The position numbers and the translations under genes are program-made. Of a stretch of DNA of 64,000 bases, positions 7,563 through 63,545 are shown piece after piece (the first letter of the stretch is position 1; every line of letters begins with the position of its first letter). The stretch lies in NCBI RefSeq assembly GCF_000764655.1, contig NZ_JRGL01000005.1, forward strand, positions 1 to 64,000, read 5' to 3'. Origin of the DNA: Aeromonas aquatica (GTDB lineage Bacteria; Pseudomonadota; Gammaproteobacteria; Enterobacterales; Aeromonadaceae). Below the pieces are notes generated by a model. The model did not search any database. It was not told the DNA's origin and saw nothing but the letters and a program-made list of their open reading frames with translations.

Positions 7563-7593
7563 AGATGCCACCCCTGAGGTGGCATCTCTCTTT
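7563..7593 (+). terminator. Terminator after yciN
   Basis: AGATGCCACC / GGTGGCATCT stem followed by a pyrimidine-rich TCTCTTT tract. The stem sequence resembles the 3' end of the convergent diguanylate cyclase gene 64 bases away; see findings. Confidence 0.75.
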
Positions 7594-7637
7594 CTGGCTG
7601 CGAGCAGGCGGCGAGCCGCCCATCAGGATGCCGCCCC

Positions 7638-8768
7638 TCAGGCAGCGTCGGTGTTGGCCGGCTTGGGCGGGAGCTCGTTGTCCCCCGCCACGCAGTTGCG
7701 CCCCGCCATCTTGGCCAGGTAGAGACACTCGTCGGCCCGATTGAACAGATCCTCTATGCTCTCGCCGCGCCGGGCCAGGGTCAGGCCTATGCTCACCGTC
7801 ACCTCCAGCAGCTCATCAGAGGTGGGACTCTTCACCAGCCGCGCCTCCACCGCGATGCGCAGCCGCTCGGCGACCCGTTTCGCCTTGTTCAACTCGCCGC
7901 AGTTGGGCAGCAGGACGGCAAACTCTTCTCCGCCGTAGCGCCCGAGCACCATGCCGGGCTCCAGCTGCTCCGCCAGGGTCGCCGCCACCTCCTTGAGCAC
8001 CGCATCCCCCGCCAGATGGCCGAAGTTATCGTTGATCCGCTTGAAGCGGTCCAGATCCAGCAACAAGACCGCAAAGGGTGCCTGCTTGCGGATCATGGTG
8101 ACCCTGGCTTTTTCCAGCCGCTTCATCAGCAGGCGGCGGTTCATCATGCCTGTCAGCTCGTCGGTGGTGGACTCCCGATAGAGCTGCAACAGCATGTTGA
8201 GCTGACCGCACTGCACCCAGGCGCTGGCCACGGTGAACAACGCCAGCAGCCAGATCTGGTTGAGGGTCTGCAGGCTCCACAGTGACTGATCCTGCACCCA
8301 CCAGTTGCCCGCCAGCATGGTGACCAAAATGCCGCCTGCCAGTTGCAGACTAAGTGAGAGCGGGATGGGGAAGATGGCAAACAGGCTGATGAGCAGATAG
8401 GGGAAGGCCAGATAACCCGCCTGCGGCTCCTGCTCCGCCCCGAAACTGCCCAGGCAGACGAGGGAGAACAGCACCATCACCGCCATCAGATAGCCGAGCG
8501 CCAGCTTCATCCGTTCGCGCTTGAAGTGGATGAGATAGGAGAAGGGGATAAGCGGGGAGAGAGCCAGCAAACAGAAAATGCGCGCCTTGAGCAGGACGTC
8601 AAATTGGGCGCCGGGCAGGGTCAGCCAATCGACCAGCGCCCAGGCGGGGAGGCCTATCATCAGCAGACAGGTCAGCAGCCGCAGCCGCACCGTCATGAAA
8701 CCCATGCGGGTCAGGGTAAAATCTTCGGAGTGAGCCCTGGCACTCCAAAACTCCGACAGCTTCAGCAT
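7638..8768 (-). CDS. Membrane-bound GGDEF diguanylate cyclase
   Basis: 376 residues. The start at 8768 has GGAG seven bases upstream; an in-frame ATG at 8783 has none. Five or six hydrophobic segments fill the first 190 residues and probably form a membrane sensor. A C-terminal GGDEF domain follows: DELTGMMNRR, LLDLDRFKRINDNFGHLAGD, and the active-site loop RYGGEEFAVLLPN. The loop is intact GGEEF, so cyclic-di-GMP synthesis is expected. An RxxD inhibitory site is not evident before the loop. The signal sensed is unknown. Confidence 0.92.
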   Translation of the reverse strand: MLKLSEFWSARAHSEDFTLTRMGFMTVRLRLLTCLLMIGLPAWALVDWLTLPGAQFDVLLKARIFCLLALSPLIPFSYLIHFKRERMKLALGYLMAVMVLFSLVCLGSFGAEQEPQAGYLAFPYLLISLFAIFPIPLSLSLQLAGGILVTMLAGNWWVQDQSLWSLQTLNQIWLLALFTVASAWVQCGQLNMLLQLYRESTTDELTGMMNRRLLMKRLEKARVTMIRKQAPFAVLLLDLDRFKRINDNFGHLAGDAVLKEVAATLAEQLEPGMVLGRYGGEEFAVLLPNCGELNKAKRVAERLRIAVEARLVKSPTSDELLEVTVSIGLTLARRGESIEDLFNRADECLYLAKMAGRNCVAGDNELPPKPANTDAA

Positions 8769-8888
8769 CCAGAGTCTCCACATAACAATTGAGGGCTCAT
8801 TCTACACCGCCACTACAGAGATGCATCAGCACTCGCCCCATTAAAAACGAGAAGGGCCTCACACAAACCGGCGGATCATAATCGCCAC

Positions 8889-8904
8889 ACGCAAACGTTT
8901 CAAC
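8889..8904 (+). promoter_or_regulatory. PurR-like operator upstream of the xanthine permease
   Basis: ACGCAAACGTTTCAAC: the first twelve bases match the PurR consensus (ACGCAAACGTTTGCGT) exactly and the last four deviate. It lies 110 bases before a purine permease start, where purine repression is expected. This is a sequence match only. Confidence 0.6.
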
Positions 8905-9013
8905 CCATCGAGAAATAAACATGATCCTGCTCAATTAGCGCTGGTCAGCCTCATTTCAGCCACTACAATAGCGCCCAATTTTCTCCCCCTCCCCTACAAA
9001 ACTTGAGGTATCT

Positions 9014-10414
9014 ATGGAACAGGCAGCCGTCGCGCGCCCCCCCGTCGCAGAGGCACATCCCCCGAGGCGACCCCACAGCGAACTGGTCTACGGCATAGAA
9101 GAGGTCCCGCCCCTGCCCCAGACTCTGTTCGCCGCCCTGCAGCATATGCTCGCCATGTTTGTCGCCATCATCACCCCGCCCCTCATCATCGCCAATGCCC
9201 TCGGCCTCCCCGCCGCCGACACCCGCTATATCGTCTCCATGTCCCTGGTCATGTCCGGCATCGCCTCCTTCATCCAGACCCGCCGCTTCGGCCCGCTCGG
9301 TTCCGGCCTGCTGTCGGTGCAGGGCACCAGCTTCAACTTCCTCGGTCCCATCATCGCCTCAGGCCTCGCCCTCAAGCAGGCGGCCATGCCCACCGAGGAT
9401 CTGCTGGGTACCCTGTTCGGCACCATGCTGGCGGCGGCCCTCACCATCGTCGTGATGAGCCGCTTCCTGCACCTGGTCAAACGGATCATCACCCCGCTGG
9501 TGACCGGCATAGTGGTGCTGCTGATCGGCCTGACTCTGATCAAGGTCGGTCTCATCAGCATGGGAGGCGGCTACGGGGCGCTGGCCGACGGCAGCTTCGC
9601 GAGCCACAGCAACCTCTTCCTCTCCCTGCTGGTGCTCGGCCTCATCGTGTTGCTGCAGCGCAGCCGCAACCCTTGGCTGCGCCTCTCCGCCATCATGCTC
9701 GCCATGCTGGTGGGCTATGGCGCCGCCCTGCTGCTGGGCAAGGTGAGCGCACCGACCTTCGAGGGCCCGCTGGTGATGGTGCCCATCCCGCTGCACTACG
9801 GCCTCGGCTTCGACTGGCAGCTGTTCGTGCCGCTGGCCATCATCTTCGTGGTGACGGCGCTGGAAGCCATCGGCGACATGACCGCCACCTCGGACATCTC
9901 CGGCGAGCCGCTGGACGGGCCCGTCTACATGGCGCGGATCAAGGGGGGCGTGCTGGCCGACGGCGTCAACTCCATGCTGGCGGCGGTCTTCTCCACCTTC
10001 CCCATGTCCACCTTCGCCCAGAACAACGGCGTCATCCAGCTGACCGGGGTGGCCAGCCGCCACGTCGGCCTCTTCATCGCCGCCATGCTGGCCCTGCTCG
10101 GCCTGTTCCCGGCGGTGGCGAGCCTGGTGCAGCAAATACCCGAGCCCGTGCTCGGCGGCGCGACTATCGTCATGTTCGGCACCATAGCCGCCGCCGGGGT
10201 GCGCATCATCTCCCGCGAGGAGCTCGACCGCCGCGCCCTGATGATACTGGCGGTGTCGCTCGCCATGGGACTGGGGGTGGCGCAGGTGCCAGAGGTGCTG
10301 CAACACCTGCCGGAGCTCGCCCGAAGCGTGCTCTCCTACGGCGTCGCCACCGGCGGCCTCACCGCCATCATCATGAATCTGCTGCTGCCCAAGCGCAGCC
10401 AGGCCCACGACTAA
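9014..10414 (+). CDS. xanP: NCS2-family xanthine/purine permease
   Basis: 466 residues with about 12-14 membrane segments. GAGG lies six bases before the ATG. NCS2 hallmarks are the QHMLAMFVAIITPPLI opening, SVQGTSFNFLGP (TM3), the TALEAIGDMTATSD segment (substrate-binding Glu) and the family signature starting QNNGVIQLTGVASRHVG. Similarity is to XanP/YicE proton-linked xanthine uptake rather than to the shorter uracil permease UraA. A PurR-like box upstream fits purine salvage. A terminator follows the gene. Confidence 0.88.
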   Translation: MEQAAVARPPVAEAHPPRRPHSELVYGIEEVPPLPQTLFAALQHMLAMFVAIITPPLIIANALGLPAADTRYIVSMSLVMSGIASFIQTRRFGPLGSGLLSVQGTSFNFLGPIIASGLALKQAAMPTEDLLGTLFGTMLAAALTIVVMSRFLHLVKRIITPLVTGIVVLLIGLTLIKVGLISMGGGYGALADGSFASHSNLFLSLLVLGLIVLLQRSRNPWLRLSAIMLAMLVGYGAALLLGKVSAPTFEGPLVMVPIPLHYGLGFDWQLFVPLAIIFVVTALEAIGDMTATSDISGEPLDGPVYMARIKGGVLADGVNSMLAAVFSTFPMSTFAQNNGVIQLTGVASRHVGLFIAAMLALLGLFPAVASLVQQIPEPVLGGATIVMFGTIAAAGVRIISREELDRRALMILAVSLAMGLGVAQVPEVLQHLPELARSVLSYGVATGGLTAIIMNLLLPKRSQAHD

Positions 10415-10425
10415 CCTGCCCAACC

Positions 10426-10448
10426 AAAGCCCCGCCGTGCGGGGCTTT
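10426..10448 (+). terminator. Hairpin after the xanthine permease
   Basis: AAAGCCCCGC / GCGGGGCTTT stem with a three-base loop, twelve bases after the stop. The T run is short, so termination may be partial. Confidence 0.65.
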
Positions 10449-10504
10449 ACCTCGCCTCCTGCCGCGAGTACTGTGCTTGGCAGCCTCTGCCCAAGGATGC
10501 CCTC

Positions 10505-11200
10505 ATGCCCTATCGCCTGCTTTCCTCCCCCTCAGACACGCCCGATCAGACACTGGCCCAGGAGCAGCAGTGGCTGCGGGACTGTACCCGTGACGGTCTG
10601 GCCCGCGCCCACCTCTGGCAGGCGCCCCAGTGCCTCATCGTCACCCGCAAGGACATGCGGCTGCCCCGCTATCAGGCCGCCTGCGAGCAACTCGCCGCCG
10701 AGGGCTGGCCCGTCCATGTGCGCGACAGCGGCGGCACCGCCGTGCCCCACGGCGCCGGCATCCTCAATCTGTCGCTTATCCTGCCGCGCACCACCACGGA
10801 TCTTGGCCACTACTACCAATTGCTGGGGGAGCCGCTGCTGACCCTGCTGGCGGATTATGGCCTGCAGGGCGGCTACGACTTCGTGCCCGGTTCGTTTTGC
10901 GACGGCCAGTACAATCTGGTGATCGGGGGTCGCAAGGTAACCGGTACCGCCCAGCGCTGGCTGGCGCCGGGCCAGGATCATCAGGGCGCCGTACTGGCCC
11001 AGGCCATGCTGCTGGTGGCGGGCGATGTAGATGAGGGCACCAGGATGGCGAGCCGCTTCTATGAGCTGGCGGGCGGAGAGCTGCGCTTCCTGCCCGGCAC
11101 CTCCACCACGCTGGCACAGCAGATCGGTTGGCAGGGCAGTCCCGAGGAGCTGGTGGCGCAGGTCCGGCGGCGGCTGCAGGTGCTGCTGATCGGCGGCTAG
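10505..11200 (+). CDS. Lipoate-protein ligase A / BPL-LplA catalytic-domain protein
   Basis: 231 residues. The fold signatures are VRDSGGTAVPHGAGILNLSL (equivalent of the RRxSGGGxVxH lipoyl-AMP loop) and VIGGRKVTGTAQRW, which carries the conserved catalytic Lys. Family role: attach lipoate or octanoate to apo-proteins. It is much shorter than E. coli LplA (about 338 residues) because it lacks the accessory C-terminal domain. It could therefore be a transferase of the LipM type. Exact substrate not established. Terminator at 11252. Confidence 0.78.
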   Translation: MPYRLLSSPSDTPDQTLAQEQQWLRDCTRDGLARAHLWQAPQCLIVTRKDMRLPRYQAACEQLAAEGWPVHVRDSGGTAVPHGAGILNLSLILPRTTTDLGHYYQLLGEPLLTLLADYGLQGGYDFVPGSFCDGQYNLVIGGRKVTGTAQRWLAPGQDHQGAVLAQAMLLVAGDVDEGTRMASRFYELAGGELRFLPGTSTTLAQQIGWQGSPEELVAQVRRRLQVLLIGG

Positions 11201-11251
11201 GCCCCTGCCCTTCTCCAACGGGCAGGAGAGCTAACCACTAGGACGCCAACG

Positions 11252-11285
11252 AAAAAGCCACGACCGGGGTCGTGGCTTTGTCATT
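11252..11285 (+). terminator. Terminator after the lipoate-ligase-like gene
   Basis: Strong AAAGCCACGACC / GGTCGTGGCTTT stem with a GG loop, then TCATTT. Confidence 0.78.
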
Positions 11286-11308
11286 TCCTGCACGGAGCAA
11301 AGACAGGC

Positions 11309-11386
11309 TCAGGCCGTCTGCGGCTCGGGTTCTGACTCTGTATCCTGGTCCCGGCTGAAGCAATAGACCAGGGTCTCGGCTGTCAC
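11309..11386 (-). pseudogene. Echo of the AGCS symporter 3' end
   Basis: On the minus strand this stretch encodes VTAETLVYCFSRDQDTESEP, a short remainder and a stop. The real gene ends VIAETRAYFSRDLDAESEP and stop. The two stop codons are exactly 100 bases apart. The copy is diverged and has two in-frame insertions. It has no start and is not expected to make protein. Confidence 0.8.
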
Positions 11387-11408
11387 AGCATGGGATCCCA
11401 ACAGAGAC

Positions 11409-12779
11409 TCATGCCGTCTGGGGCTCGGACTCCGCATCCAGATCCCGGCTGAAGTAGGCGCGGGTCTCGGCGATCACCACGTGGCGCAGGCCGATGAGGC
11501 CAATGAGGTTCGGCACCGCCATCAGGCCGTTGACGATGTCGGCCAGCAGCCAAATCATGTCCAGATGGAGGAAGGCGCCACTCGCCACCAGCACCAGATA
11601 GATGAGGCGGTAGGGCTTGATGGCCTTGACCCCGAACAGGTACTCGGTGCAGCGCTCGCCGTAGTAGTTCCAGCCGAGAATGGTGGTGAAGGCGAAGAAC
11701 AGCAGCCCTATGCTCACCAGATACTGGCCTATCTGCGCATCCAGTCCCTGGGCGAAGGCGGCGCTGGTCATGGCGGCACCGCTCAGGTCCCCGCTCCACA
11801 CCCCTGTCACCACCAGGGTCAGGCCCGTCATGGTGCAGATGATAATGGTGTCGATGAAGGTGCCCGTCATGGAGACCAGCCCCTGCTCCACGCAGGAATC
11901 CGTCTTGGCCGCCGCCGCGGCTATGGGGGCCGAGCCCAGCCCCGACTCGTTGGAGAAGACACCGCGCGCCACCCCGGACTGGATCGCCAGCATGATACCG
12001 GCCCCGACGAAGCCGCCGGTGGCGGCATGGCCGGTAAAGGCGCTATTGATGACCAACATCACCGCCTCCGGCAAGGCGCCGGCGTTGTTCACCAGCACAC
12101 CGCCACAGGCGAGGATGTAGAAGATGGCCATGAAGGGCACCACCTTGCTCGACACGCTGGAGATGGACTGAATGCCCCCCAGGGTCACCAGCGCCACGAT
12201 CAGCGTCAGCACCACGGCGGTCGCCTCGCGGGGCACCGAGAAGGAGAGGCTCATGGCGTCGGAGATGGCGTTGACCTGGGGGAAGGTACCAATACCGAAG
12301 AAGGCCACCCCTATGCCGAACAGGGCGAACAGCTTGGCCAGCGGCTTGGAGCCGAGCCCCTTCTCCAGATAGTACATGGGGCCGCCCGCCATCTGGCCGT
12401 TGGCATCCTGCTCGCGATATTTGACCGCCAGCAGGCACTCGGCGTACTTGGTCGCCATGCCGAACAGGGCCGCCATCCACATCCAGAACAGGGCACCCGG
12501 GCCGCCGAGCTTGATGGCGGTGGCAACCCCGACGATGTTGCCGGTGCCTATGGTGGCGGAGAGCGCGGTGCAGAGCGCGGCGAAGCTGGAGACATCCCCC
12601 TGCTTGCCCTGGCCCTGATCGCGACCAAATACCAGTCGCAGGGCGAGCGGCAAGCGCACGACCTGAAGCAAACCCAGACGCAGGGTGAGATAGACACCGG
12701 TCCCGACCAGCAGGATCAGCAGGGGCGGACCCCAGATAAAGCTATCGATGGCGGTTAACGCCGATTGAATTGATGACAT
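11409..12779 (-). CDS. AGCS-family sodium:alanine/glycine symporter
   Basis: 456 residues with about ten to eleven membrane segments. AGCS signatures: the N-terminal FIWGPPLLILLVGTGVYLT, then ALCTALSATIGTGNIVGVA (TM3, substrate and Na+ contacts), GGPMYYLEKGLG, and VFSNESGLGSAPIAAAAAKT. It imports glycine or alanine with Na+. It lies downstream of a tandem glycine riboswitch, which indicates that glycine is the physiological substrate or inducer. A consensus AAGGAGGA site precedes the ATG and can be sequestered in a hairpin. Confidence 0.95.
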   Translation of the reverse strand: MSSIQSALTAIDSFIWGPPLLILLVGTGVYLTLRLGLLQVVRLPLALRLVFGRDQGQGKQGDVSSFAALCTALSATIGTGNIVGVATAIKLGGPGALFWMWMAALFGMATKYAECLLAVKYREQDANGQMAGGPMYYLEKGLGSKPLAKLFALFGIGVAFFGIGTFPQVNAISDAMSLSFSVPREATAVVLTLIVALVTLGGIQSISSVSSKVVPFMAIFYILACGGVLVNNAGALPEAVMLVINSAFTGHAATGGFVGAGIMLAIQSGVARGVFSNESGLGSAPIAAAAAKTDSCVEQGLVSMTGTFIDTIIICTMTGLTLVVTGVWSGDLSGAAMTSAAFAQGLDAQIGQYLVSIGLLFFAFTTILGWNYYGERCTEYLFGVKAIKPYRLIYLVLVASGAFLHLDMIWLLADIVNGLMAVPNLIGLIGLRHVVIAETRAYFSRDLDAESEPQTA

Positions 12780-12780
12780 G

Positions 12781-12817
12781 CATCCTCCTTAAAAAACAAC
12801 AATTAAGGAGGAGAAGG
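12781..12817 (-). promoter_or_regulatory. Hairpin that can sequester the symporter ribosome-binding site
   Basis: On the plus strand ATCCTCCTTAA at 12782-12792 is followed by a ten-base spacer and the complementary TTAAGGAGGA at 12803-12812, plus GAAGGAT. In the minus-strand mRNA the AAGGAGGAT ribosome-binding site pairs with an upstream CTCCTTAA segment. This could be the translational output switch for the glycine riboswitch, 215 bases further upstream. Confidence 0.65.
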
Positions 12818-13031
12818 ATGATCTTCCCATAGGTGTCGCGATCGCCAGAGGTGATCGGATGCGGGCCAAGAACGTGTTCACACTCTTACTGCGAGGCCGT
12901 GATCAAGGCTCATGCGCTGCTCGGAATCCTCACGTATGTCTATACGCTCCGGTTCCTGCGCTGCTCTTTACCTTGCTGACGACCTCTCGTTACAGATCGT
13001 GAACAGTTTCAAGCTCAGGTACAACCATCCC

Positions 13032-13226
13032 ATCCCCTCTGTCCTTTTGCCTGAGAGTTTCCGACACCTGCCTGCGATGCAGTCATAGTGCCTTGCTCCT
13101 TCGGCGCCCGATCTAACGGGTCTCTCCAGAGTATCGTCCAGTAGCAGTCCACACCGGTTGCCCGGTACCTGAAAGATTCACTTCTTCGGTGGATGGTCCC
13201 CCATCGCTCTCCTGCTACCTTCATCC
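13032..13226 (-). promoter_or_regulatory. Tandem glycine riboswitch (gcvT element)
   Basis: Read on the minus strand, aptamer 1 shows GCAGGAGAGCGATG, CACCGAAGAAG and TCTTTCAGGTACC. A short linker leads to aptamer 2, with ACTCTGGAGAGACCCG, GCGCCGAAGGAGCAAG and AAACTCTCAGGCAAAAGG. These are the conserved cores of both glycine-binding domains in the usual order. In Vibrio cholerae the analogous tandem element precedes an AGCS symporter, as here. Confidence 0.93.
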
Positions 13227-13236
13227 GAACTAGTTT

Positions 13237-13284
13237 GGATTAGGAAGCGGGCATATTAATCAAAAAACTGTGAGCTGTCTCGCA
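13237..13284 (-). promoter_or_regulatory. Candidate promoter and CRP-like site for the riboswitch mRNA
   Basis: On the minus strand TTTTGA (13265-13260) and TAATCC (13242-13237) are 17 bases apart and lie just upstream of aptamer 1. A near-consensus CRP site, TGTGAGCTGTCTCGCA (13269-13284, written on the plus strand), adjoins the -35. It matches 9 of 10 conserved bases. Confidence 0.42.
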
Positions 13285-13537
13285 CTCACCCCCTAGGTGC
13301 GCGCACTTTTTTCCAGGCAGCTCCTTTCCTGACATAATGTTAAATGTTCGTTATGCGTCAATGAGTTAGAGCACCTTTCCCGGCGCACTCCAATCGGGGC
13401 CCCGATGGTGGCTTTTATATCGACAGCACCTTTCGTCTCGACCAGAAAAACTTGCCAACATATCCAATCAAAATGCTTGCACAGAAACGCAATAAGAAGA
13501 TAATTCCGCGCATAACTAAGCACTTTGCACCGAAGTT
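13285..13537. other. Intergenic region between the riboswitch and the decarboxylase
   Basis: There is no recognisable gene. A perfect 14-base palindrome ATCGGGGCCCCGAT lies at 13393-13406. No clear -35/-10 pair was found for the decarboxylase. Confidence 0.4.
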
Positions 13538-13651
13538 ATGCACTGTGCCTGGTGGGTCCCTCCGGACCACTCGCCTGAGCCGGCCGTCGCCGGTTCAATC
13601 GCATATGGCTTGGGCCTATCACGCCCCCTAAGGATCTTCAAAAGAGAATGA
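13538..13651 (+). CDS. Possible 37-residue leader ORF overlapping the decarboxylase start
   Basis: The ATG at 13538 opens a reading frame beginning MHCAWWVPPDH and ending IFKRE. Its TGA stop overlaps the decarboxylase ATG as ATGA. Only GAAG precedes the start, so translation is uncertain. Position and size recall leader peptides that control ornithine decarboxylase genes, but the sequence is not similar to SpeFL. It may be chance. Confidence 0.3.
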   Translation: MHCAWWVPPDHSPEPAVAGSIAYGLGLSRPLRIFKRE

Positions 13652-14796: not shown

Positions 14797-14817
14797 GCCA
14801 CCATCGAGCGCGCCAAT

Positions 14818-14849
14818 AAGAAGGGGGAAGCCGATGCTTCCCCCTTCTT
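14818..14849 (+). terminator. Terminator after the decarboxylase gene
   Basis: AAGAAGGGGGAAGC / GCTTCCCCCTTCTT perfect stem with a four-base loop. Confidence 0.85.
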
Positions 14850-14946
14850 CATGTCAATCCGCTGATCGATAAGGTCGGCGACCCTCTCTCAATAGTGGCA
14901 AAATCTGCCCACTCCACAGCATAAACGACCACCGATAAATACACTT

Positions 14947-15915: not shown

Positions 15916-16038
15916 AATCGTCTATCCCATCCACTCAAACACGAGAGCCAGGCTGCAAACCTGGCTCCACCCAAAAGCGGGCTCAGTGTAGCGGGCCGCC
16001 TTGCTATTTCAAGATGAAATCAAACAATGATTAACATT

Positions 16039-16512: not shown

Positions 16513-16604
16513 GATGTCTCGTCCTTAAGTGGATGAAAGAAGCCCAGTCTACGCCAAGTCAGAAAGGGGTGACACCGGCTCAAGAGTACCTGCGCCCCTG
16601 ACCG

Positions 16605-16639
16605 ATTTGGATGGCGAGCCGGGAGACAGACCTGAATCA
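16605..16639 (-). pseudogene. Probable echo of the yfcD 3' end
   Basis: GATGGCGAGCCGGGAGAC followed by CTGAATCAT repeats the coding bases GATGGCGAGCAGGGAATC and GTGAACTCAT of yfcD about 65 bases away. The copy abuts the yfcD stop codon. It is short and diverged; an alignment score is needed. Confidence 0.45.
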
Positions 16640-17146
16640 TTATGCTCGATCGGATCGCCGAGCCAGCCAGGTCGCGATGGCGAGCAGGGAATCCGGGGTG
16701 AACTCATGGGCCCGCAACCCTATCTCGGCGAGGCTCATCCAGTGCACGGCGCTCACCTCTTCCGCCTGCAGTTGCAAGGGACCCTGATAGCGGCAACTGA
16801 ACAGGCCTCCCCAGACCCGGTAGCCCTTTCCGTCCAGCTCTCCTTCGGCGTAGAAGGTGCCAAAGCTTTGCAGGGGCACACCGTGGATCCCCAACTCCTC
16901 CGCCAGCTCGCGCCGGGCTGAGGGCTCCATCGCCTCACCCTGGGTCACCACGCCACCGGCGCAGGCGTCCAGCATACCGGGACAGAAGTCCTTGCCGAGG
17001 GTGCGGCGCTGCACCAGCACGCGCCCGGCGTCATCGAGCACCAGGATATAGCTGGCACGATGACGCAGATTCTCCCGCCGAACCCTGGCCCGCTCGGCGA
17101 CCCCGATCACTCGGTCCTGCTCATCCACTACGTCTACCCACTCCAC
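16640..17146 (-). CDS. yfcD: Nudix hydrolase YfcD
   Basis: 168 residues. The start codon is GTG; GGGGT lies about six bases upstream and no in-frame ATG is better placed. It matches E. coli YfcD through EWVDVVDEQDRVIG, LRHRASYILV, VQRRTLGKDFCPGMLDA and WGGLFSCRYQGPL. The Nudix box runs GGVVTQGEAMEPSARRELAE plus ELG, with the REUxEExGU core intact. The family is related to isopentenyl-diphosphate isomerase. The physiological substrate is unknown. Confidence 0.92.
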   Translation of the reverse strand: MEWVDVVDEQDRVIGVAERARVRRENLRHRASYILVLDDAGRVLVQRRTLGKDFCPGMLDACAGGVVTQGEAMEPSARRELAEELGIHGVPLQSFGTFYAEGELDGKGYRVWGGLFSCRYQGPLQLQAEEVSAVHWMSLAEIGLRAHEFTPDSLLAIATWLARRSDRA

Positions 17147-17376
17147 GCACGCTACCCCGTTGAAACCCTCGATGAGCAGCAGTATATCGAGGCCAGGGCC
17201 CGGCGCGGCACTACTTTTTCAACACACGGGGAGAAGGTTTTCAATCCTAGGTGGAAGCCCACGCCGAGGCAGGCTGCAAGGAAAAAATGGATTCATACAA
17301 CCCTCCATAAAATGTCACACTGGTGTCACGCAAGGGCGGCATAGTGTGCCCTGTCCAAGCAACAGGGTGTTTTGCC

Positions 17377-17592
17377 ATGAAGGTGTTCAAGCAGTTGTCT
17401 CCTCGCCAGATTGCCCGCCATATCAAGAGCTTTCATCAGGGGAGCTTCATGGTAGAAGCGCTGGGGCGATTCGAATTTCAGGGTGGGGCCATCGACTTGA
17501 GGACACTGAGCTGCCATCAGGCGCTACGCCTGGCCCGGCAGATCAATCTGGCGGTGCGCGATCTGCGCACCACGACCCTGTTGCCGGGCTGA
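17377..17592 (+). CDS. Small conserved-looking protein of unknown function
   Basis: 71 residues from the ATG at 17377. Composition is basic in the first half (FKQLSPRQIARHIKSFHQG) with a hydrophobic middle. It has no signal peptide, no membrane segment and no Cys cluster, and I do not recognise the family. Codon usage resembles neighbouring genes and a hairpin terminator follows at 17630, which supports a real gene. A longer in-frame start at 17323 is possible. Confidence 0.6.
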   Translation: MKVFKQLSPRQIARHIKSFHQGSFMVEALGRFEFQGGAIDLRTLSCHQALRLARQINLAVRDLRTTTLLPG

Positions 17593-17629
17593 CATACTCC
17601 GTCTGTAGTCTGCTTCCATGCATGTCTTT

Positions 17630-17659
17630 GCCCGCCGCTCATCGAGCGAGCGGGCTATT
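17630..17659. terminator. Hairpin between the small gene and aapP
   Basis: GCCCGCCGCTC / GAGCGAGCGGGC stem with one bulge, followed on the plus strand by TATTTT. It lies between convergent genes. Confidence 0.7.
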
Positions 17660-17680
17660 TTCATCCCACGAGGCCTGCGC

Positions 17681-18424
17681 TCAATGCTGCAGGATCTGGG
17701 AGAGGAACAGCTTGGTGCGCTCCGACTGGGGATGGTCGAAGAACTGATCCGGCACGTTCTCTTCGATGATCTGACCACGGTCCATAAATATAACCCGATC
17801 CGCCACCTGCTTGGCAAAGCCCATCTCGTGAGTGACGCAGAGCATGGTCATCCCCTCATGGGCCAGCTCCACCATGACATCCAGCACCTCCCGCACCATC
17901 TCGGGATCCAGCGCCGAGGTCGGCTCGTCGAACAGCATCACCTGCGGGTTCATGCAGAGGCTGCGGGCAATGGCCACCCGCTGTTGCTGGCCGCCGGAGA
18001 GCTGGCCCGGGTACTTGAGGGCCTGCTCCGGGATCCTGACCCGGCGCAGGAAGGTCATGGCGATCTCCTCGGCCTCCTTGCGCGGCAACTGCTTGACCCA
18101 GATGGGGGCCAGGCAGCAGTTTTCCAGCACCGTCAGATGGGGGAAGAGGTTGAAGTGCTGGAACACCATGCCCACCTCGCGGCGCACCATCTCAATGTTC
18201 TTGAGATCCGAGGTGAGCGCCGTGCCCTTAACCAGTATGTCGCCACTCTGGTGCTCCTCCAGCCGGTTGATGCAGCGGATCATGGTGGACTTGCCCGAGC
18301 CGGATGGCCCGCAGATGACGATCTTCTCGCCCTTGCCCACCTGCAGGTTGATGTTACGCAGCACATGAAACTCGCCGTACCACTTATTGACAGATTTAAG
18401 TTCTACTACAGCGTCTGTTTTCAT
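17681..18424 (-). CDS. aapP: Amino-acid ABC transporter ATP-binding protein
   Basis: 247 residues, polar amino-acid uptake family. Walker A is GPSGSGKST, the Q-loop is in [11 protein letters not shown], the ABC signature is [15 protein letters not shown] and Walker B is [14 protein letters not shown]. The H-loop is in VTHEMGF. It is the last gene of the aapJQMP operon and energises the two permeases. The ribosome-binding GGAG precedes TCGAGATG. The gene is preceded by a 38-codon echo of its own 5' end whose stop overlaps this start. Confidence 0.95.
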
Positions 18425-18537
18425 CTCGAAACAACTCCTGCTCTCTTGCTCACCCGCACATTGATGTTGTGCAACTCAAAAAAACCGCCATATCGCTTGT
18501 TAACTGACCTGAGTGCCATCACAGGGTCTCTTCTCAT
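18421..18537 (-). pseudogene. Echo ORF of the aapP 5' end, coupled to aapP
   Basis: Thirty-eight codons starting MRRDPVMALRSVNKRYGGFF and continuing ELHNINVRV. The real aapP starts [20 protein letters not shown]. Both are preceded by GGAG and TCGAGATG; the starts are 113 bases apart. The echo reads through to a TGA that overlaps the aapP ATG (ATGA), so it may act as a translationally coupled leader. Confidence 0.75.
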
Positions 18538-18549
18538 CTCGAACTACTC

Positions 18550-25304: not shown

Positions 25305-25489
25305 TGAGAGTTAGCTCCAGATCCAAGTAATGAGGCATTAAAAAAAGAGACGGGATGATATCAGACTTTTTCCCGAGGTGCTGCGGGTGGCCGCCCTGAT
25401 TTCCCCGCTCGTGGGAGAGAGTTCACACAAGTCAGGGATAAACGCCGCCCATCGACGGCGATCTGTTTACCGTGCTGTTCAGCGAGGCT

Positions 25490-25570
25490 CGCACCGTGGC
25501 CACCTTGGTGCCGTCGGTGATATTGACCCGGCCATCGTCCTATGGTCCCCATGTTGACACCGTGACAAGG
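25490..25570 (-). pseudogene. Echo of the cutC 3' end
   Basis: A stretch of more than 30 bases covering GTGCCGTCGGTGATATTGAC is identical to cutC codons near the C-terminus (HGVNMGTSDDGRVNITDGTK). Divergence and a frame-changing indel occur beside ATGGTCCCCATGTTGAC. The copy lies 134 bases from the homologous cutC bases and cannot be read as one frame. Confidence 0.85.
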
Positions 25571-25601
25571 AGAGACACCCGGCCACCGCACCAATGTCTT
25601 A

Positions 25602-26327
25602 TCAGGCGCGATCCAGCAAAGCCCTAACCGCGGCCACCTTGGTGCCGTCGGTGATATTGACCCGGCCGTCGTCCGAGGTGCCCATGTTCACTCCGTGGGG
25701 CACCATGCCACCACGCCAGCCCATGCCGGACATGTGCACCTCGTCCACGCCGGTGAACTCGAGGATGGTGCGCACGTTGTCGGCATTGACGCCGGCCCCC
25801 GGCATCAGGCTGGCCCGGCCCGCCAGGGTCTGCTGCATGGCTTGCAAGGTCTCCAGCCCCGCCAGGGCGGTCGGGGCATGACCGGAACTCAGGATCCGCT
25901 CACAACCGGCCGCCACTATGGTCTCCAGATCGGCACGCCAGTTGGAGCTGAGATCGATGGCGCGATGGAAGGTGACGCCGAGGGGGCCGGCCGCCTCCAC
26001 CAACTGCCGGAGCTGCCCGGCGGGCACCCGGCCGGTCTCGTCCAGCAGGCCTATCACCACCCCTTGCAGGCCAGCGGCGCGGGCGGCGGCGATATCCAGC
26101 AGCATGAGTTCAAATTCGGCGGCACTGAAACAGAAATCCCCGGCACGGGGGCGGATCATGGCGTATACGGGGATGGTCGCATGGCGCGCCACCTGCTGCA
26201 TGAAGCCATAGGAAGGGGTGAGGCCGCCGAGTCCCAGCGCAGAGCAGAGCTCGATGCGATCCGCGCCGGCTTGTTGGGCGGTAAACAGGGATTCCAGGTT
26301 GTCGATACAGATTTCAAGACGGGTCAT
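25602..26327 (-). CDS. cutC: CutC family protein
   Basis: 241 residues with a TIM-barrel sequence pattern: LEICIDNLESLFTAQQAGAD, IELCSALGLGGLTPSYG, MIRPRAGDFCFS, VTFHRAIDLS, ILSSGHAPTALAG and LMPGAGVNADN. These are the CutC hallmarks. The copper-homeostasis assignment is historical and the biochemical role is unsettled. It lies 41 bases downstream of nagK on the same strand, with a hairpin between. Its own 3' end is partly repeated just downstream. Confidence 0.93.
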   Translation of the reverse strand: MTRLEICIDNLESLFTAQQAGADRIELCSALGLGGLTPSYGFMQQVARHATIPVYAMIRPRAGDFCFSAAEFELMLLDIAAARAAGLQGVVIGLLDETGRVPAGQLRQLVEAAGPLGVTFHRAIDLSSNWRADLETIVAAGCERILSSGHAPTALAGLETLQAMQQTLAGRASLMPGAGVNADNVRTILEFTGVDEVHMSGMGWRGGMVPHGVNMGTSDDGRVNITDGTKVAAVRALLDRA

Positions 26328-28842: not shown

Positions 28843-29817
28843 TTACATCACGCCCAGCTTCTTCAGGTCGGCCTGGACCACCTTGGCCGGGACAGGTACA
28901 TAACCGTCCTTGGCCACGATGTTCTGACCGGCCTTGGACAGGATCATCTTCACAAACTCTTGCTCCATCGGGGAGAGCGGCTTGTTCGGGTGCTTGTTCA
29001 CGTAAACGTACAGGAAGCGCGACAGCGGGTACTTGCCGGTGATGGCGTTGTCCGAGGTGGCCTCGATGAAGGTCTTGCCATCCTTGGAGAGCGGCACGGC
29101 GCGCACACCCGAGGTGACATAACCGATACCCGAGTAGCCGATGCCGTTCAGGGAGGAGGAGACGGACTGCACCACGGAAGCCGAACCCGGCTGCTCGTTC
29201 ACGCCGCTCTTGAAGTCGCCGTTACACAGGGCGTGCTCCTTGAAGTAGCCATAGGTACCGGATACCGAGTTGCGCCCGAACAGTTGCAGATCCTTGGCGG
29301 ACCAGCTGCCATCCAGACCCAGATCAGACCACTTGGTGGCCGCCTTGGCTTCGCCGCACTTGAGGGTGCTGGAGAAGATGGCATCGATCTGCGGCATGGT
29401 CAGCCCCTTGATGGGGTTGTCCTTGTTGACGAACACCGCCAGAGCATCGACCGCGACGCGGATGGCGGTCGGCTTGTAGCCATAGCGCTTCTCAAATGCC
29501 TCTTCTTCACCGGCCTTCATGGCGCGGCTCATGGGGCCAAACTGGGCGACACCTTCGGTCAGCGCGGTCGGGGCGGTTGAAGAACCGGCGGCCTGGATCT
29601 GCACGTTGACGTTGGGGTACATGCGCTTAAATTCTTCGGCCCACAGGGTCATCATGTTGGCCAGGGTGTCCGAGCCGACAGAGGACAGGTTGCCCGAGAT
29701 GCCGCTGGTCGGGGTGTAATCCGGCAGGTCTTTATCCACACCGGCAGCCAGGGCGCTGACAGAAAACAGGGTTGCTGCGGTGAATCCGATCACACCGGCC
29801 AGTTTGTTGAGTTTCAT
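28843..29817 (-). CDS. pstS: Periplasmic phosphate-binding protein PstS
   Basis: 324 residues. The signal peptide ends SALA near residue 24. Phosphate-contacting segments are [24 protein letters not shown] and the SRAMKAGE segment; [15 protein letters not shown] follows. It is PstS of the PhoB regulon. pstCAB is not adjacent and must lie elsewhere. GGAGA precedes the ATG. Upstream lie two degenerate repeats of its own start region and Pho boxes. Confidence 0.95.
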
Positions 29818-29861: not shown

Positions 29862-29914
29862 TCTGTCTCCTCTCTCCAAGGTGACAGAAGGCTATTGCCA
29901 ATACATGGCGCCGA

Positions 29915-30014
29915 TTAACACTGTCTTGCTGTGGTCAACCCGACTGCATCAGTCAGATTGTTAAGTTTCATTCCGTACCCTCTCGTCTCCAGAGTGCCAG
30001 AAGGTCCGTTCTTA
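29915..30014 (-). pseudogene. Echo 2 of the pstS start region
   Basis: The ATG at 29971 encodes MKLNNLTDAVGLTTARQC and a stop. The real pstS begins [37 protein letters not shown] upstream repeats the real leader. It lies 110 bases before echo 1 and is more diverged. Confidence 0.8.
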
Positions 30015-39987: not shown

Positions 39988-40680
39988 CTAACCCACACGG
40001 CGCCAGTGATAACGGCGCTCTGGGCGACCGCGCTGACCGTAGTTGAGATCCACGTCCAGCTTGTCTTCGGACTCCAGAAACTCCAGATAGCGGCGCGCCG
40101 TGGTGCGGCTCAGGGAGAGGCGCAGCGCCACCGTATCGGTGGAAAACGCGGTATCCGGCTCCCCCGCCAGCAGCTCCAGCACCTGGCGCAAGGTGATGGC
40201 GTCGATGCCCTTGGGGGTGTCGCGCACCTCCCTCGGCTGGATCCGCCCCTTGCCCATCAGCCGATCGAGATCGTTCTGCTCCAGCAGGCCGCGCTCGCAC
40301 AGGCGGCGATGCAGGGTCAGTATCTCGTCCAGGCTCTGCTGGATGCGAAACAACCGCAGCGGCTTGATGATGTAGTCCTGCACCCCCAGGTTCAGGGCCT
40401 GCTGTATGGTCTCCACGTCACAGGAGGCGGTGACCATGACCACGAACACCTCCCGATTGTGGTTGCGCAGCCGGTTCACCCACTCCAGCCCGGAGCCGTC
40501 GGGCAGAGAGATATCCACCACCAGCAGTTGGGGTTCGGTGGCGCGCATCATGAGATCGGCCTGGGCCAGGCTCTCGGCCCGTCCCAACAGGGAGTAACCC
40601 GGGGTAGAGGAAACCAGCTCGGCCAGGATGGCACCGATCCGATCGTCGTCCTCGATAATAAGCGTGAAGATTGGCTTCAT
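39988..40680 (-). CDS. DcuR/CitB-family response regulator
   Basis: 230 residues. The receiver has acidic pocket EDDDR, phosphoacceptor Asp56 in LLVVDISLPDGSG, and Lys in DYIIKPLRLFRI. The C-terminal helix-turn-helix (FSTDTVALRLSLSRTTARRY) is of CitB/DcuR type. It is paired with the kinase three bases upstream. Likely regulator of the malate carrier and malic enzyme in the same operon. Its 3' end is echoed twice downstream. Confidence 0.92.
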   Translation of the reverse strand: MKPIFTLIIEDDDRIGAILAELVSSTPGYSLLGRAESLAQADLMMRATEPQLLVVDISLPDGSGLEWVNRLRNHNREVFVVMVTASCDVETIQQALNLGVQDYIIKPLRLFRIQQSLDEILTLHRRLCERGLLEQNDLDRLMGKGRIQPREVRDTPKGIDAITLRQVLELLAGEPDTAFSTDTVALRLSLSRTTARRYLEFLESEDKLDVDLNYGQRGRPERRYHWRRVG

Positions 40681-50254: not shown

Positions 50255-50330
50255 TCAGCGCACCCGCACTGGAGCCACACAAGGGATCCGTTCTCCCGTT
50301 CCCTCTCGCCAGACATCGAAATAGGGGTCA
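50255..50330 (-). repeat. Inner echo of the nrdG 3' end
   Basis: TCAGCGCACCCGCA, AAGGGATCCGTTCTCCCGTT and CTCTCGCCAGACATCGA align with TCAGCGCACCAGCG, GGGGATCCGTTCTTCCAT and TCTCACGCCAGGCGTTGA of the nrdG 3' end. The stop codons are 87 bases apart. Confidence 0.8.
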
Positions 50331-50341: not shown

Positions 50342-50857
50342 TCAGCGCACCAGCGTCACGCAGGGGATCCGTTCTTCCATACTCTCACGCCAGGCGTTGA
50401 GATCGTGGATCTGCTGGTTGCTGCTGCCACGCCAGAGCAGGCCGGGATCCGCCAGCCCCCGCACGAACTTGCCGTCGACCAGCACATCCAGCAGGGCCAC
50501 CAGCTCACGCTGGGCTGCCGACAGCTCGCCGAGCAGATAGCCGGTCCAGCACCAGATGTCCTTGCCCGGGCACTCGGCCCGCACCCGTTTCACCAGCATC
50601 AGCACATGGGGGACGTTGGCAGGGTGGAGCGGATCGCCGCCGGAGAGCGACAGGCCACGGCGCTTGATGCGGCTGTCGTTGAGATCGTTGATGATGCGAT
50701 CGCTCATGACCTGGTCGAACGGCTTGCCCCCATCGAGCCGCCAGGTGGCCTGGTTGTAGCAACCGGGGCACTGATGCTCGCAGCCCGACACGAACAGGGT
50801 GGCACGAGTGCCTGGCCCGTTGATGACATCGACCGGGTAGTACTGGTGGTAGTGCAT
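50342..50857 (-). CDS. nrdG: Anaerobic ribonucleotide reductase activase
   Basis: 171 residues. The radical-SAM CxxxCxxC motif is Cys26, Cys30, Cys33 (SGCEHQCPGCYNQ). LSLSGGDPLHPAN is the SAM-binding GGD block. It loads the glycyl radical on NrdD. Slightly longer than E. coli NrdG (154) at the C-terminus, the end that is echoed downstream. It follows nrdD by 86 bases on the same strand. Confidence 0.96.
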   Translation of the reverse strand: MHYHQYYPVDVINGPGTRATLFVSGCEHQCPGCYNQATWRLDGGKPFDQVMSDRIINDLNDSRIKRRGLSLSGGDPLHPANVPHVLMLVKRVRAECPGKDIWCWTGYLLGELSAAQRELVALLDVLVDGKFVRGLADPGLLWRGSSNQQIHDLNAWRESMEERIPCVTLVR

Positions 50858-53263: not shown

Positions 53264-53292
53264 CTATTAGGCACCAAAGCGATACCGCATTT

Positions 53293-53417: not shown

Positions 53418-53450
53418 GTCATCCGACAACAATTGACCAAGGCAGGTTTG
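53418..53450 (+). pseudogene. Probable echo of the 5' end of the next gene
   Basis: GTCATCCGACAAC then TTGACCAAG repeats GTCTTCCGCCAAC and GTGACCAAG around the real start, 58 bases downstream. The part containing the start codon is missing. Confidence 0.5.
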
Positions 53451-53493
53451 GCACAAAACACACATAATGGGGGCAGTCTTCCGCCAACGGAGA

Positions 53494-54471: not shown

Positions 54472-54484
54472 TCCCTGAAAATGA

Positions 54485-54514
54485 CAAACCCGGCCATGAG
54501 CCGGGTTTGTTTTT
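54485..54514. terminator. Bidirectional terminator between the binding protein and ligA
   Basis: CAAACCCGGC / GCCGGGTTTG stem followed by TTTTT. Confidence 0.88.
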
Positions 54515-54532
54515 GGCGCTATCCACAACCCA

Positions 54533-56754
<2,222 letters not shown>

Positions 56755-56778
56755 ACTCTCATCGACCCGCAGGACGCC

Positions 56779-57912: not shown

Positions 57913-57927
57913 TAGCTGCTTCTCTTT

Positions 57928-61299
<3,372 letters not shown>

Positions 61300-61511
61300 G
61301 AGGGCCTATCTGGGTAACAAAATAAAGGGAGAGGCGGGTTGCCGGCTTGACCCAATCCAACTCAGCGTCGGCTGGTCATCGGCTGGCACTTGTCCATCAA
61401 CGTCCGACATCCGAAGGCACCGGACAGGAAGAGGAATGGACAGGCGACTTTACCAAATCAAAGGCTTGTTTGTAATATGCAGGCAGTTTCCCGTTAACAG
61501 ATGGAGCTCCG

Positions 61512-62276
61512 ATGAGCCAATCCCCCCACATTGCCAAAGATTCGGTCAGCGGCGCAGACTACTTCCTGCGCGGCTTCACGCTCATCCGTCAACCCGGCAT
61601 CCGCACCTTCGTGCTGATCCCCCTGCTGGTCAACGTGGTGCTGTTTGCCGGCGCCTTCTATGCGCTCCTGCTGCAACTCGATGGCCTGTTTGCCTGGTTG
61701 CACCAGCAGATCCCGTCCTGGCTCAGCTGGCTCGACTATCTGCTGTGGCCCATCGCCCTGGTCACCATACTGGTGGTGTTCTCCTTCATCTTCAGTTCGG
61801 TGACGAACTGGATCGCGGCCCCCTTCAACGGCCTGCTGGCGGAGAAGGTGGAGCAGGTGCTCACCGGTGAGACGGTGAGCGATACCGGCATGCTGGACGT
61901 GGTCAAGGACGTGCCGCGCACCTTCGGCCGTGAGTGGACCAAGCTGAAATACTACCTGCCCAAGGCCATCGGCTGCCTGATCCTGTTCCTCATCCCGGTG
62001 GTCGGCCAGACGCTCGCCCCCGTGCTCTGGTTCCTGTTCAGCGCCTGGATGATGGCGATCCAGTATGTGGATTACCCGTTCGACAACCACAAGATCGACT
62101 TCATCACCATGCGAGACGCCCTCAAGCAGCGCCGCGGCAAGTGCCTGAGCTTCGGCGCCCTGGTCACCCTCTTCTCCGCCATTCCGGTGGTGAACCTGTT
62201 CGTGATGCCGGTCGCCATCTGTGGCGCTACCGCCATGTGGGTGGATCAATACCGGGCCGAGCAGCTGCGCCGCTAG
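61512..62276 (+). CDS. cysZ: Sulfate transporter CysZ
   Basis: 254 residues, as in E. coli (253). Four or more membrane segments with [40 protein letters not shown] and [18 protein letters not shown], all CysZ-specific. It imports sulfate for cysteine synthesis. It diverges from smc with a 212-base gap that shows no further gene. Terminator follows. Confidence 0.95.
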
Positions 62277-62296
62277 GCCGGCTCTGAGATAACAAA

Positions 62297-62320
62297 AAAC
62301 GGGGGCGAAAGCCCCCTTTT
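62297..62320 (+). terminator. Terminator after cysZ
   Basis: GGGGGC-GAAA-GCCCCC stem-loop with A run before and four T after. Confidence 0.88.
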
Positions 62321-62411
62321 CATTACTTAATCTAATGCCAATGTGAGAGTGCTTGTCCAGCCAGTACAGGCTTGTTAGGATGCGGGCCTTTCTCGCACCC
62401 TGGGATATCTC

Positions 62412-63026
62412 ATGTTACATGCACTCTTCTTGCTCGGCCTGGTGGCCGAAGGGATGACAGGCGCGCTGGCGGCGGGTCGGCGAAGGATGGATCTGTTTGG
62501 CGTGGTGATCATCGCCTCGGCGACCGCCATAGGTGGCGGCACCATCCGGGATGTGCTGCTGGGACACTATCCCCTACTCTGGGTGGAGCACCCCGAATAC
62601 GTACTATTGGTGGCTGGCGCCGCCATGGTGGGCGTCATTTCGGCACCGCTGATGCGTTATCTCGGCAAGCTGTTCATGGCCCTCGATGCCCTGGGGCTGG
62701 TGGTGTTTTCCATCTTCGGCGCGGCCCGGGCGCTGGAGATGGGTCACGGGGCCGGTATCGCCTGCATCATGGCGGTGGTGACCGGGGTCTTCGGCGGCGT
62801 GCTGCGGGATCTGCTGTGCCAGCGCATCCCCCTGGTGTTTCGGCGCGAGCTCTATGCCGCCGTCTCCCTGGTGACCGCCGCCCTCTACTGCCTCGCGCTG
62901 GATCAGGGGCTGCCCAATGATTGGGCCGCCTTCGGGGCCATCGGCGTCGGCTTCGTGCTGCGGCTGCTGGCGGTGCGCTTCAAGTGGGGGCTGCCCACCT
63001 TCAACTACCAATATGCCACTCACTGA
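62412..63026 (+). CDS. TRIC-family (UPF0126, YicG-like) membrane protein
   Basis: 204 residues with seven membrane segments in two repeats. Each repeat holds the glycine-rich TRIC motif: AIGGGTIRDVLLGHYP and VFGGVLRDLLCQRIP. Bacterial members are K+-permeable homotrimers; annotation as glycine transporter also exists for this Pfam. Function here unproven. A long hairpin terminator follows. Confidence 0.9.
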   Translation: MLHALFLLGLVAEGMTGALAAGRRRMDLFGVVIIASATAIGGGTIRDVLLGHYPLLWVEHPEYVLLVAGAAMVGVISAPLMRYLGKLFMALDALGLVVFSIFGAARALEMGHGAGIACIMAVVTGVFGGVLRDLLCQRIPLVFRRELYAAVSLVTAALYCLALDQGLPNDWAAFGAIGVGFVLRLLAVRFKWGLPTFNYQYATH

Positions 63027-63060
63027 GTGCGCCAGCTTCTGACCATACTGACCTTATTAT

Positions 63061-63100
63061 CACCAACAAAAAAGCGCCCGAAGGCGCTTTTTTGTTGGTG
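63061..63100. terminator. Long bidirectional terminator
   Basis: Perfect 18-base inverted repeat (CACCAACAAAAAAGCGCC and its complement) with a CGAA loop, between convergent genes. Confidence 0.93.
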
Positions 63101-63119
63101 ATGACAACACAAGACTAGC

Positions 63120-63371
63120 TCAGTTGATCCCTTCCGAACTGAAGAAGGTCGCCTTGTCGGCGATGAAACGGATCTTGATGTTCTTGTTATCCTTACCCCA
63201 GATGCAGCTGGTAGTCCCCAGCTTGTCCTCACAGCTCTCAGCCTTGCCGAGGATGCTGGCCGCCTCCGCATAGCTGATCCCCATCTTCAGCTTGTCATAG
63301 TTCTCCCGGTTCAGCTTGCTGCACCCGGTCAACAGCAGCGCGATCAACCCGCCGATCAGAATATGCTTCAT
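63120..63371 (-). CDS. Small lipoprotein, DUF3862-like
   Basis: 83 residues. The lipobox is LLTGC (Cys17). Mature part: SKLNRENYDKLKMGISYAEA, then ILGKAESCEDKLGTTSCIWG with two Cys that may form a disulfide. The pattern resembles DUF3862 and SmpA/BamE-like small lipoproteins. Function unknown. GGAGAGA precedes the start. Confidence 0.82.
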   Translation of the reverse strand: MKHILIGGLIALLLTGCSKLNRENYDKLKMGISYAEAASILGKAESCEDKLGTTSCIWGKDNKNIKIRFIADKATFFSSEGIN

Positions 63372-63422
63372 CTATCTCTCCTCTAGGTTAGTGCCCAGAG
63401 CCTAGCAGCTCGGCTCCCCCCT

Positions 63423-63470
63423 TTGCCAGCGACGACCTGTCAGGGATCGGGGTTGCCGTATCGAAAAACA
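63423..63470 (-). repeat. Outer echo of the mepK 3' end
   Basis: TTGCCAGCGACGACCTG then CGGGGTTGCCGTAT repeats TTACCAGCTGCGAACCG and CGGTATCGAGGTGC of the gene end. It lies 66 bases from the inner echo. Confidence 0.6.
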
Positions 63471-63488
63471 AGGCACAATAGACCCGTA

Positions 63489-63545
63489 TTGCCAGCGACC
63501 TGTACTAGGTCGGTATCACCGTATTTGGACAAGTGACGGGCTGCG
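63489..63545 (-). repeat. Inner echo of the mepK 3' end
   Basis: TTGCCAGCGACCTGTAC, TCGGTATCACCGTAT and GACGGGCTGCGGAC align in order with TTACCAGCTGCGAACC, CCGGTATCGAGGTGC and GACGGGTAGTAACCGAC of the gene. Offset to the gene is 72 bases. Confidence 0.68.

Follow-up and report, generated by a model that had tools for sequence, protein, structure and literature searches.

Gene-end echoes, by which we mean degenerate copies of a gene's own start or end lying directly outside that end, occur at several genes in a 64,000-nucleotide stretch of Aeromonas aquatica DNA (assembly GCF_000764655.1, contig NZ_JRGL01000005.1, positions 1 to 64,000; hereafter, the window). They are real and are not confined to the window: roughly two to three of every 100 gene ends in the sampled Aeromonas sequence adjoin a worn copy of themselves of ~100 bases. 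The explanation that we consider probable is that short tandem duplications arose at gene ends and subsequently underwent amplification, deletion and exchange through homologous recombination.

Echoes in the window

The genome comprises 4.58 Mb in 171 contigs; the window is part of a contig of 69,774 bases, and 55 genes were called within the window using a small self-trained gene finder. In our screen, the inner 200 nt of each gene end were compared, in the same orientation, with the gene's own outward flank (up to 400 nt); for comparison, 4,400 shuffled window flanks were scored, with a maximum of 141. Six of the 88 window gene ends scored above all of these shuffles, although this count is biased upward as an estimate of rate, as the window was chosen for its echoes. 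Four of the six are 3' ends (of cutC, a dcuR-like gene, agcS and nrdG) and two are 5' ends (of an ABC transporter ATPase gene and pstS). When each site was shuffled 1,000 times, the score of none of the six was reached. Retrained gene calls again gave six (of 84 ends), with no matches among 1,680 shuffles and none to the reverse complement, and jointly trained calls gave five of 86, the ABC ATPase end dropping out. The echoes in the window are as follows.

25472..25593, minus strand: 3' echo of cutC (gene 25602-26327), 8 nt past the stop codon; score 326, 83% identity
39878..39971, minus strand: first 3' echo of the dcuR-like gene (39988-40680); score 291, 83% identity
39777..39861, minus strand: second 3' echo of the dcuR-like gene; 80% identity to the gene and 97% to the first echo, with a period of 110
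11309..11393, minus strand: 3' echo of agcS (gene 11409-12779); score 202, 82% identity; genome G009 has one too
50255..50327, minus strand: first 3' echo of nrdG (gene 50342-50857); score 168, 78% identity
50181..50254, minus strand: older and more decayed 3' echo of nrdG; score 115
18433..18537, minus strand: 5' echo of the amino-acid ABC ATPase gene (17681-18424); score 220, 69% identity; also in G009 and G020
29904..29971, minus strand: 5' echo of the pstS-family gene (28843-29817); score 157, 72% identity; also in G011, G036 and G023
16578..16639, minus strand: probable, decayed 3' echo of yfcD (gene 16640-17110); score 91, p=0.009
56523..56660, minus strand: outer copy of the ligA N-terminus, in frame and containing the called start codon; inner copy at 56385-56522

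Two of these names hold at the family level only, because the profile scores fall below the cutoffs (136 bits against 262 for DcuR, and 317 against 379 for assignment of the ABC ATPase as GlnQ).

The first-pass annotation, made from the sequence of the window alone, had proposed echoes at ten or more genes. Of about 11 that it named, seven are firm: agcS and cutC, the ABC ATPase gene (which it called aapP) and pstS all exceed every shuffle; the echo of the dcuR-like gene is indeed doubled, with a clear second copy, as is that of nrdG, where the second copy is more decayed; and ligA does carry an in-frame copy of its end. For yfcD, the echo is borderline in the window and clear in the G009 orthologue (82% identity). 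Four further candidates did not rise above chance, namely, the 3' end of mepK (63561-63869; p=0.12) and the 5' ends of genes encoding a GT14 protein (p=0.29), an SBP_bac_3 protein (p=0.15; 1,000 shuffles for each of these three) and an ABC_sub_bind protein (p=0.58; 500 shuffles).

The ligA repeat is a tandem one of 138 bp, with 74% identity between the copies. It corresponds to 46 codons in frame, giving a predicted LigA of 714 residues with a doubled N-terminus; the repeat is absent from all six of the relatives compared, which makes the call of the ligA start codon doubtful. At nrdG, the older echo matches the nrdG ends of other species better than its own, which ranks 22 (counting from 0) among 31, and a stretch resembling it, as judged by eye, also lies 3' of nrdG in G009, G018, G022 and G023. 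At agcS and the dcuR-like gene, the echo is placed between the stop codon and a hairpin with trailing T residues (again by eye); with the echo ahead of a terminator-like hairpin, both genes would have a longer 3' untranslated region (UTR).

Frequency in Aeromonas and in other bacteria

The annotation had suggested comparing gene ends with shuffled flanks genome-wide. Carried out on a sample of 20-kb stretches from each genome, this comparison reveals a genuine excess of end copies. G009 contributed 14 echoes at 416 ends, G023 4 at 228 and G036 6 at 230. Three of the sampled stretches match the window region, and these (7 of 96 ends) were set aside, leaving 17 of 778 ends (2.2%) in three genomes, compared with 10 of 2,034 outside the genus (p=1.3e-4). 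A pooled figure of 35/1,088 includes the window itself and the two matches at the bait gene, and 17/778 is the fairer one. In the wider scans, shuffled flanks exceeded the threshold in 2 of 8,320, 1 of 1,140 and 0 of 1,150 cases. Gene interiors did so at times (8/321, 2/64, 1/176 and 0/165, and 14/325 in Vibrionaceae).

Outside the pooled count, the regions matching the window in five relatives gave 10 of 522 ends, with 2/100 in G011 (which shares ~95% identity with the window across 6 kb), 5/108 in G009, 1/104 in G032 and 2/106 in G036. Eight named Aeromonas loci gave 5 of 130 ends, two of the five being at the bait gene, and loci around the window's echo genes in relatives gave 27 of 996, a figure biased by the choice of loci.

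The outgroup total comprises no echo among 349 ends in four genomes of the family outside the genus, 1 of 312 in three genomes of the class, none of 168 in Escherichia coli K-12, 8 of 464 in Vibrionaceae and 1 of 741 in Enterobacterales; it omits two single-locus sets (0/28 ends). Six of the ten outgroup matches (five in Vibrionaceae and one in Enterobacter) are coding repeats in one gene, presumably rnfC, and are probable artefacts: rnfC-like genes in loci L305, L306, L322 and L340 carry coding repeats, in what we take to be the C-terminal part, and these yield false echo matches when the simple gene caller splits the gene. Three more represent one 3' echo in three Photobacterium species (loci L342, L345 and L324), at a gene that we take to be rnt; its spacer is longer, at ~59-76 nt. 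The last is in a GC-rich genome where shuffles match as well (3/510). Given that the gene caller covered 78-85% of the Aeromonas sequence and 63-79% of the outgroup sequence, and that sampling within the family was small, at 349 ends, the sign of the difference is more trustworthy than its magnitude.

A further search, for nearby direct repeats irrespective of gene ends, covered 27 of the 31 Vibrionaceae loci. There were 24 pairs of which one copy, and only one, lay in a gene in 0.8 Mb of Aeromonas sequence, as against two in 1.31 Mb from Vibrionaceae and Enterobacterales. Wholly intergenic pairs numbered 18 and 17, respectively, and pairs inside one gene 17 and 69; a distant-offset control for composition gave 7 and 11 pairs over all classes.

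Anatomy of the echoes

The echo units are short and narrow in size, ranging from 57 to ~140 bp with a median of 98 bp over 27 hand-compiled cases (two entries are one gene in two species, and ligA is omitted). Lengths above 140 bp came from a looser alignment that chained units, and were replaced by the unit found in the other screens. Longer distances do occur in single genomes: that for pstS is 154 in the window and 104-105 in G036, G023 and G011, and that for the ABC ATPase gene is 158 in G009 and 113 in the window. In simulation, almost every unit of 100-300 bp was recovered by the screen, and long units are thus genuinely scarce in this sample; the ceiling could reflect either the birth process or fast deletion of longer repeats. 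Units of this size do not fit the suggestion, also made in the annotation, that the echoes are remains of whole-gene duplications.

The copies are direct and adjacent, with spacers of 0-31 nt in 27 of 30 alignments, and they form arrays of two or three units whose number varies between species; arrays of two echoes are seen at nth-like and lysR-like genes (these names, and that of the lysE-like gene below, are our own assignments from the sequence). Two intergenic regions of 94 bp (L137 in G009 and L211 in G036) contain echoes of both flanking genes, as would be expected of one duplication across the gene junction; the window orthologues of the L137 gene pair overlap by four bases. In general, the events are old and their borders are blurred.

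The polarity of the echoes, which is always outward, had been offered in the annotation as a clue to their origin. It is none, as any duplication across a gene end will produce it: when the stop codon is spanned, the second copy falls outside the gene, and when the start codon is spanned, the reverse holds. Copies that break the gene are lost and the inner copy is, by definition, the intact gene; hence, every end duplication looks outward, and only outward echoes are visible.

Self-duplication or import

For eight genes, echo and gene were compared with an echo-free relative, chosen for its best-fitting flank (the sister test). Over 35 of 40 cases, the relative has the base of the gene at 318 sites, that of the echo at 127 and neither at 37; by codon position, the split between gene and echo is 83 to 2 at second positions and 136 to 99 at third positions. 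This preponderance favours duplication followed by decay and disfavours import as a rule. Moreover, divergence at the gene end is not significantly greater in echo-bearers than in plain species (mean drop 0.079 versus 0.065, n=29 versus 116, p=0.18, in a test that counted three species with a shortened lysE echo as plain). Import as a general rule was not supported by these two tests.

The two parts of an echo do, however, differ. The asymmetry was first seen in the alignments and then tested on the same data: across 27 gene families, the outer 45 nt, nearest the echo's own stop or start codon, have 76 synonymous and 82 non-synonymous changed codons with 15 gaps, whereas the inner part, nearest the gene, has 58 and 179 with 49 gaps (p=1.6e-6). 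The share of changes at third positions is 50% in the outer part and 38% in the inner part, against a rough neutral expectation of 46%. When the third positions of the sister test are divided in the same way, the relative sides with echo and gene at 59 and 42 outer sites, respectively, and at 32 and 87 inner sites (p=2.7e-6; 30 cases, omitting two without downstream sequence and eight with a flank score below 200). With the lysE-like gene left out, the split is 29/39 and 20/69 (p=0.009). The outer part would thus often have served as a functional gene end until a later time than the inner part.

Import is best seen at the lysE-like gene. Its end is plain in G013, G016, G002 and G035. Compared with the best of these, four close relatives (G030, G012, G028 and G001) match at 55-60 of every 60 nt through the gene and at only 44-50 of the last 60, whereas plain genomes match one another at 55-59 of the last 60 nt and at 48-60 elsewhere. 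In G030, the match to plain relatives is 57-60/60 along the gene and 44/60 in the last 60 nt; the echo and its flank are identical at 155 of 165 positions to the working end and flank of G002, compared with 82 of 104 to G030's own end. Over the last 33 codons, the genes of G030 and G002 differ by 16 synonymous changes and one non-synonymous change. In G030, therefore, the last ~60 coding bases appear to be foreign, and to stand beside an intact native end. This is the best case for the proposal in the annotation that an imported allele left the old end behind, a proposal which fails as a rule in view of the two tests above.

Further signs come from G003, which belongs to another clade: its lysE-like end is 91-93%, and the following 27 nt 89%, identical to those of G012 and G028, as against 76-84% and 41-44% to its own clade, whereas its gene body and flank are of its own clade's type. 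A similar foreign tract thus seems to be present in two clades, and import is also indicated in G003, G012, G001 and G028. If the donor already carried an echo, two homologous crossovers would suffice for such a transfer, the right-hand one falling between the donor echo and the recipient gene end. Alternatively, the pair may be ancestral, with repeated loss in the plain species; this is less likely, because it would have to be explained why a non-coding echo stayed coding-like. The picture is blurred by G021, a plain member of the clade of G003 that is 89% identical to G012 in the last 45 nt. In G020 (L266), the middle of the lysE-like gene shows 92% identity to that of G030 and G012, which are from the other clade, and 87% to that of G003, and the gene itself looks mosaic.

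Among 29 usable species, 15 have a cutC echo above the threshold, in one to three units. In many species, these echoes have in common an insert of a few nucleotides near the inner border, which suggests that they descend from one old echo; apart from the insert, the echo resembles the species' own gene in most cases. By eye, the last cutC echoes of G003, G020, G001 and G028 resemble the ends of echo-free relatives, suggesting import in a few species. For cutC alone, the mean terminal drop is 0.089 in echo-bearers and 0.025 in plain species (means only). At the lysR-like gene, G022 and G023 have two end variants that, again by eye, are swapped between gene and echo.

Origin of the echoes

Taken together, these data lead us to favour duplication with later recombination as the probable origin. 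A tandem duplication of a unit of ~60-140 bp, often ~100 bp, would happen to span a start or stop codon, and gene function would be kept because the copy lies outside the gene. Birth may have been by slippage or by an illegitimate join. The pair would then be a substrate for homologous recombination, through which copies could be gained and lost. In exchange between species, presumably via natural transformation, an incoming allele might cross over in the echo rather than in the gene; the outer echo with its native flank would then be the displaced, recently functional gene end, and the inner part of the echo would decay and travel with the imported end. An illegitimate step would be needed only at the first birth, later moves requiring no more than homologous recombination, for which the echo would supply an arm, and the echoes themselves are presumably neutral. 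A stronger form of this scheme, about which we are doubtful but which may hold, makes the echoes a genus-wide fossil record of replaced ends, each acting as its own homology arm to carry tracts of ~100 bp between species; flank similarity would not be needed, and the recipient's old end would be left outside each time.

Several observations weigh against exchange as a part of this history, or against the scheme as a whole. The third-position share of 50% in the outer parts is not significantly above 46% (p=0.17); of the 59 third-position sites in the outer parts that side with the echo, the lysE-like gene supplies 30, and the count for cutC is tied there at 18 to 18. The p-values of the asymmetry tests are optimistic, given that neither sites within an echo nor species sharing an event are independent. 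Of 39 echoes compared over their outermost 70 nt, 13 are nearer (by at least three sites) to the gene of another species, as against two nearer to their own and 24 ties, a comparison biased by the many other genes competing with one own gene. The lack of any general excess of divergence at the gene ends of echo-bearers points the same way, as does the sister test for nrdG and the dcuR-like gene in the window genome, which sides with the gene and with decay and speaks against exchange. The echoes of the dcuR-like gene are 80-83% identical to the gene, yet exceed a score of 145 in only one of 30 species, a rarity that would call for repeated loss, rapid decay or a donor outside the sample. Finally, the window-matching region of G017 has no echo at any of its 104 ends, and no birth of an echo was caught.

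A plainer, neutral account, which we hold to be unlikely but not to be dismissed lightly, would have each echo arise by self-duplication within the lineage and decay in place, any likeness to other species being due to chance or old ancestry. The tendency of relatives to agree with the gene, above all at second positions, is what it predicts; the third-position counts fit roughly equal rates in gene and echo, and in old echoes (below 75% identity) 40% of 318 changes fall at third positions. It does not account for the outer/inner asymmetry or for the lysE-like gene in G030 and G003; in younger echoes (at least 85% identity), moreover, 61% of 155 changes are at third positions, above the rough 46%, albeit that ten of these 15 echoes are from cutC. 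A common lineage of gene and echo is thus supported overall by the sister test, whereas the third-position split, the lysE-like gene of G030 and the best-other-species comparison run contrary to it at some loci. The opposite extreme, in which homology-facilitated illegitimate recombination (HFIR) is the general cause and every echo is an old end left by an illegitimately joined imported allele, seems to us improbable. It would explain the lysE-like gene in G030 and in the group of G012, G028 and G001, and the last cutC echoes whose ends and flanks resemble those of relatives; against this, relatives mostly side with the gene over the echo, echo-bearers have no general excess of end divergence, and the narrow unit size is not expected from illegitimate joins. 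That selection maintains the echoes as elements of the 3' UTR or leader, acting as decoys, in stability or as terminators, we regard as very improbable indeed: the short insert common to the cutC echoes of many species would fit such a role, but the presence of echoes is highly variable between species, the inner parts have many gaps, and no motif common to different genes was noticed by eye, no dedicated motif search having been made.

Relation to known systems

The echoes are like the products of HFIR in transformable bacteria in that old sequence may remain beside new. They differ in that the echo copies are homologous to one another, such that both later crossovers can be homologous, and in that the units are short and narrow in size. 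In the orphan immunity arrays of the Vibrio cholerae type VI secretion system (T6SS) and in Rhs 3' regions, a new module is placed upstream and the displaced part is kept downstream; such arrays may reportedly move by homologous recombination (PMC5361080). The survival of a displaced part downstream of a new module is the likeness; the echoes, by contrast, belong to ordinary genes and are non-coding pieces of ~60-140 bp with no toxin or immunity role. Small variable genome segments other than known mobile elements have also been described, with homology-assisted illegitimate recombination as one model, and the text considered makes no mention of gene-end copies (PMC2884548). Minisatellite-type tandem duplications resemble the echoes in their head-to-tail units and changing copy number, but the echoes extend across start or stop codons and, at certain loci, appear to have been exchanged with the working ends of other species. 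Among the matches listed from the open-access literature, no title or abstract describes gene-end echoes.

Repeats at gene ends can mislead gene calling, as for the ligA start, and tests for imported alleles. If our interpretation is correct, echoes would reveal replacement of the first or last hundred bases of genes that coarser recombination scans miss; under the stronger form of the scheme, they would directly record recombination between species over very short tracts at ordinary genes, and would have a built-in means of spreading. On our interpretation, they would also account for part of the intergenic length variation in Aeromonas, and the enrichment in this genus and the ceiling of ~140 bp would become testable questions.

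Elsewhere in the window, two intervals contain no called gene: 12780-13647 (868 bp), where there are only short open reading frames besides the neighbours, and 17111-17680 (570 bp). A link between the echoes and a REP-like palindrome was considered and set aside as weak. In 3' flanks of at least 150 nt, the palindrome was matched in 5 of 16 that bear an echo and 24 of 191 that do not (p=0.054; one stratum of four); the corresponding figures are 1 of 5 and 18 of 271 for shorter 3' flanks, and 0 of 9 and 46 of 474 for 5' flanks. The element itself (CCCTTCTCCC ... GGGAGAAGGG with GGGATGAGGG) is recurrent in the genus and lies 3' of several echo loci (for example, L246-L275 and L290-L295).

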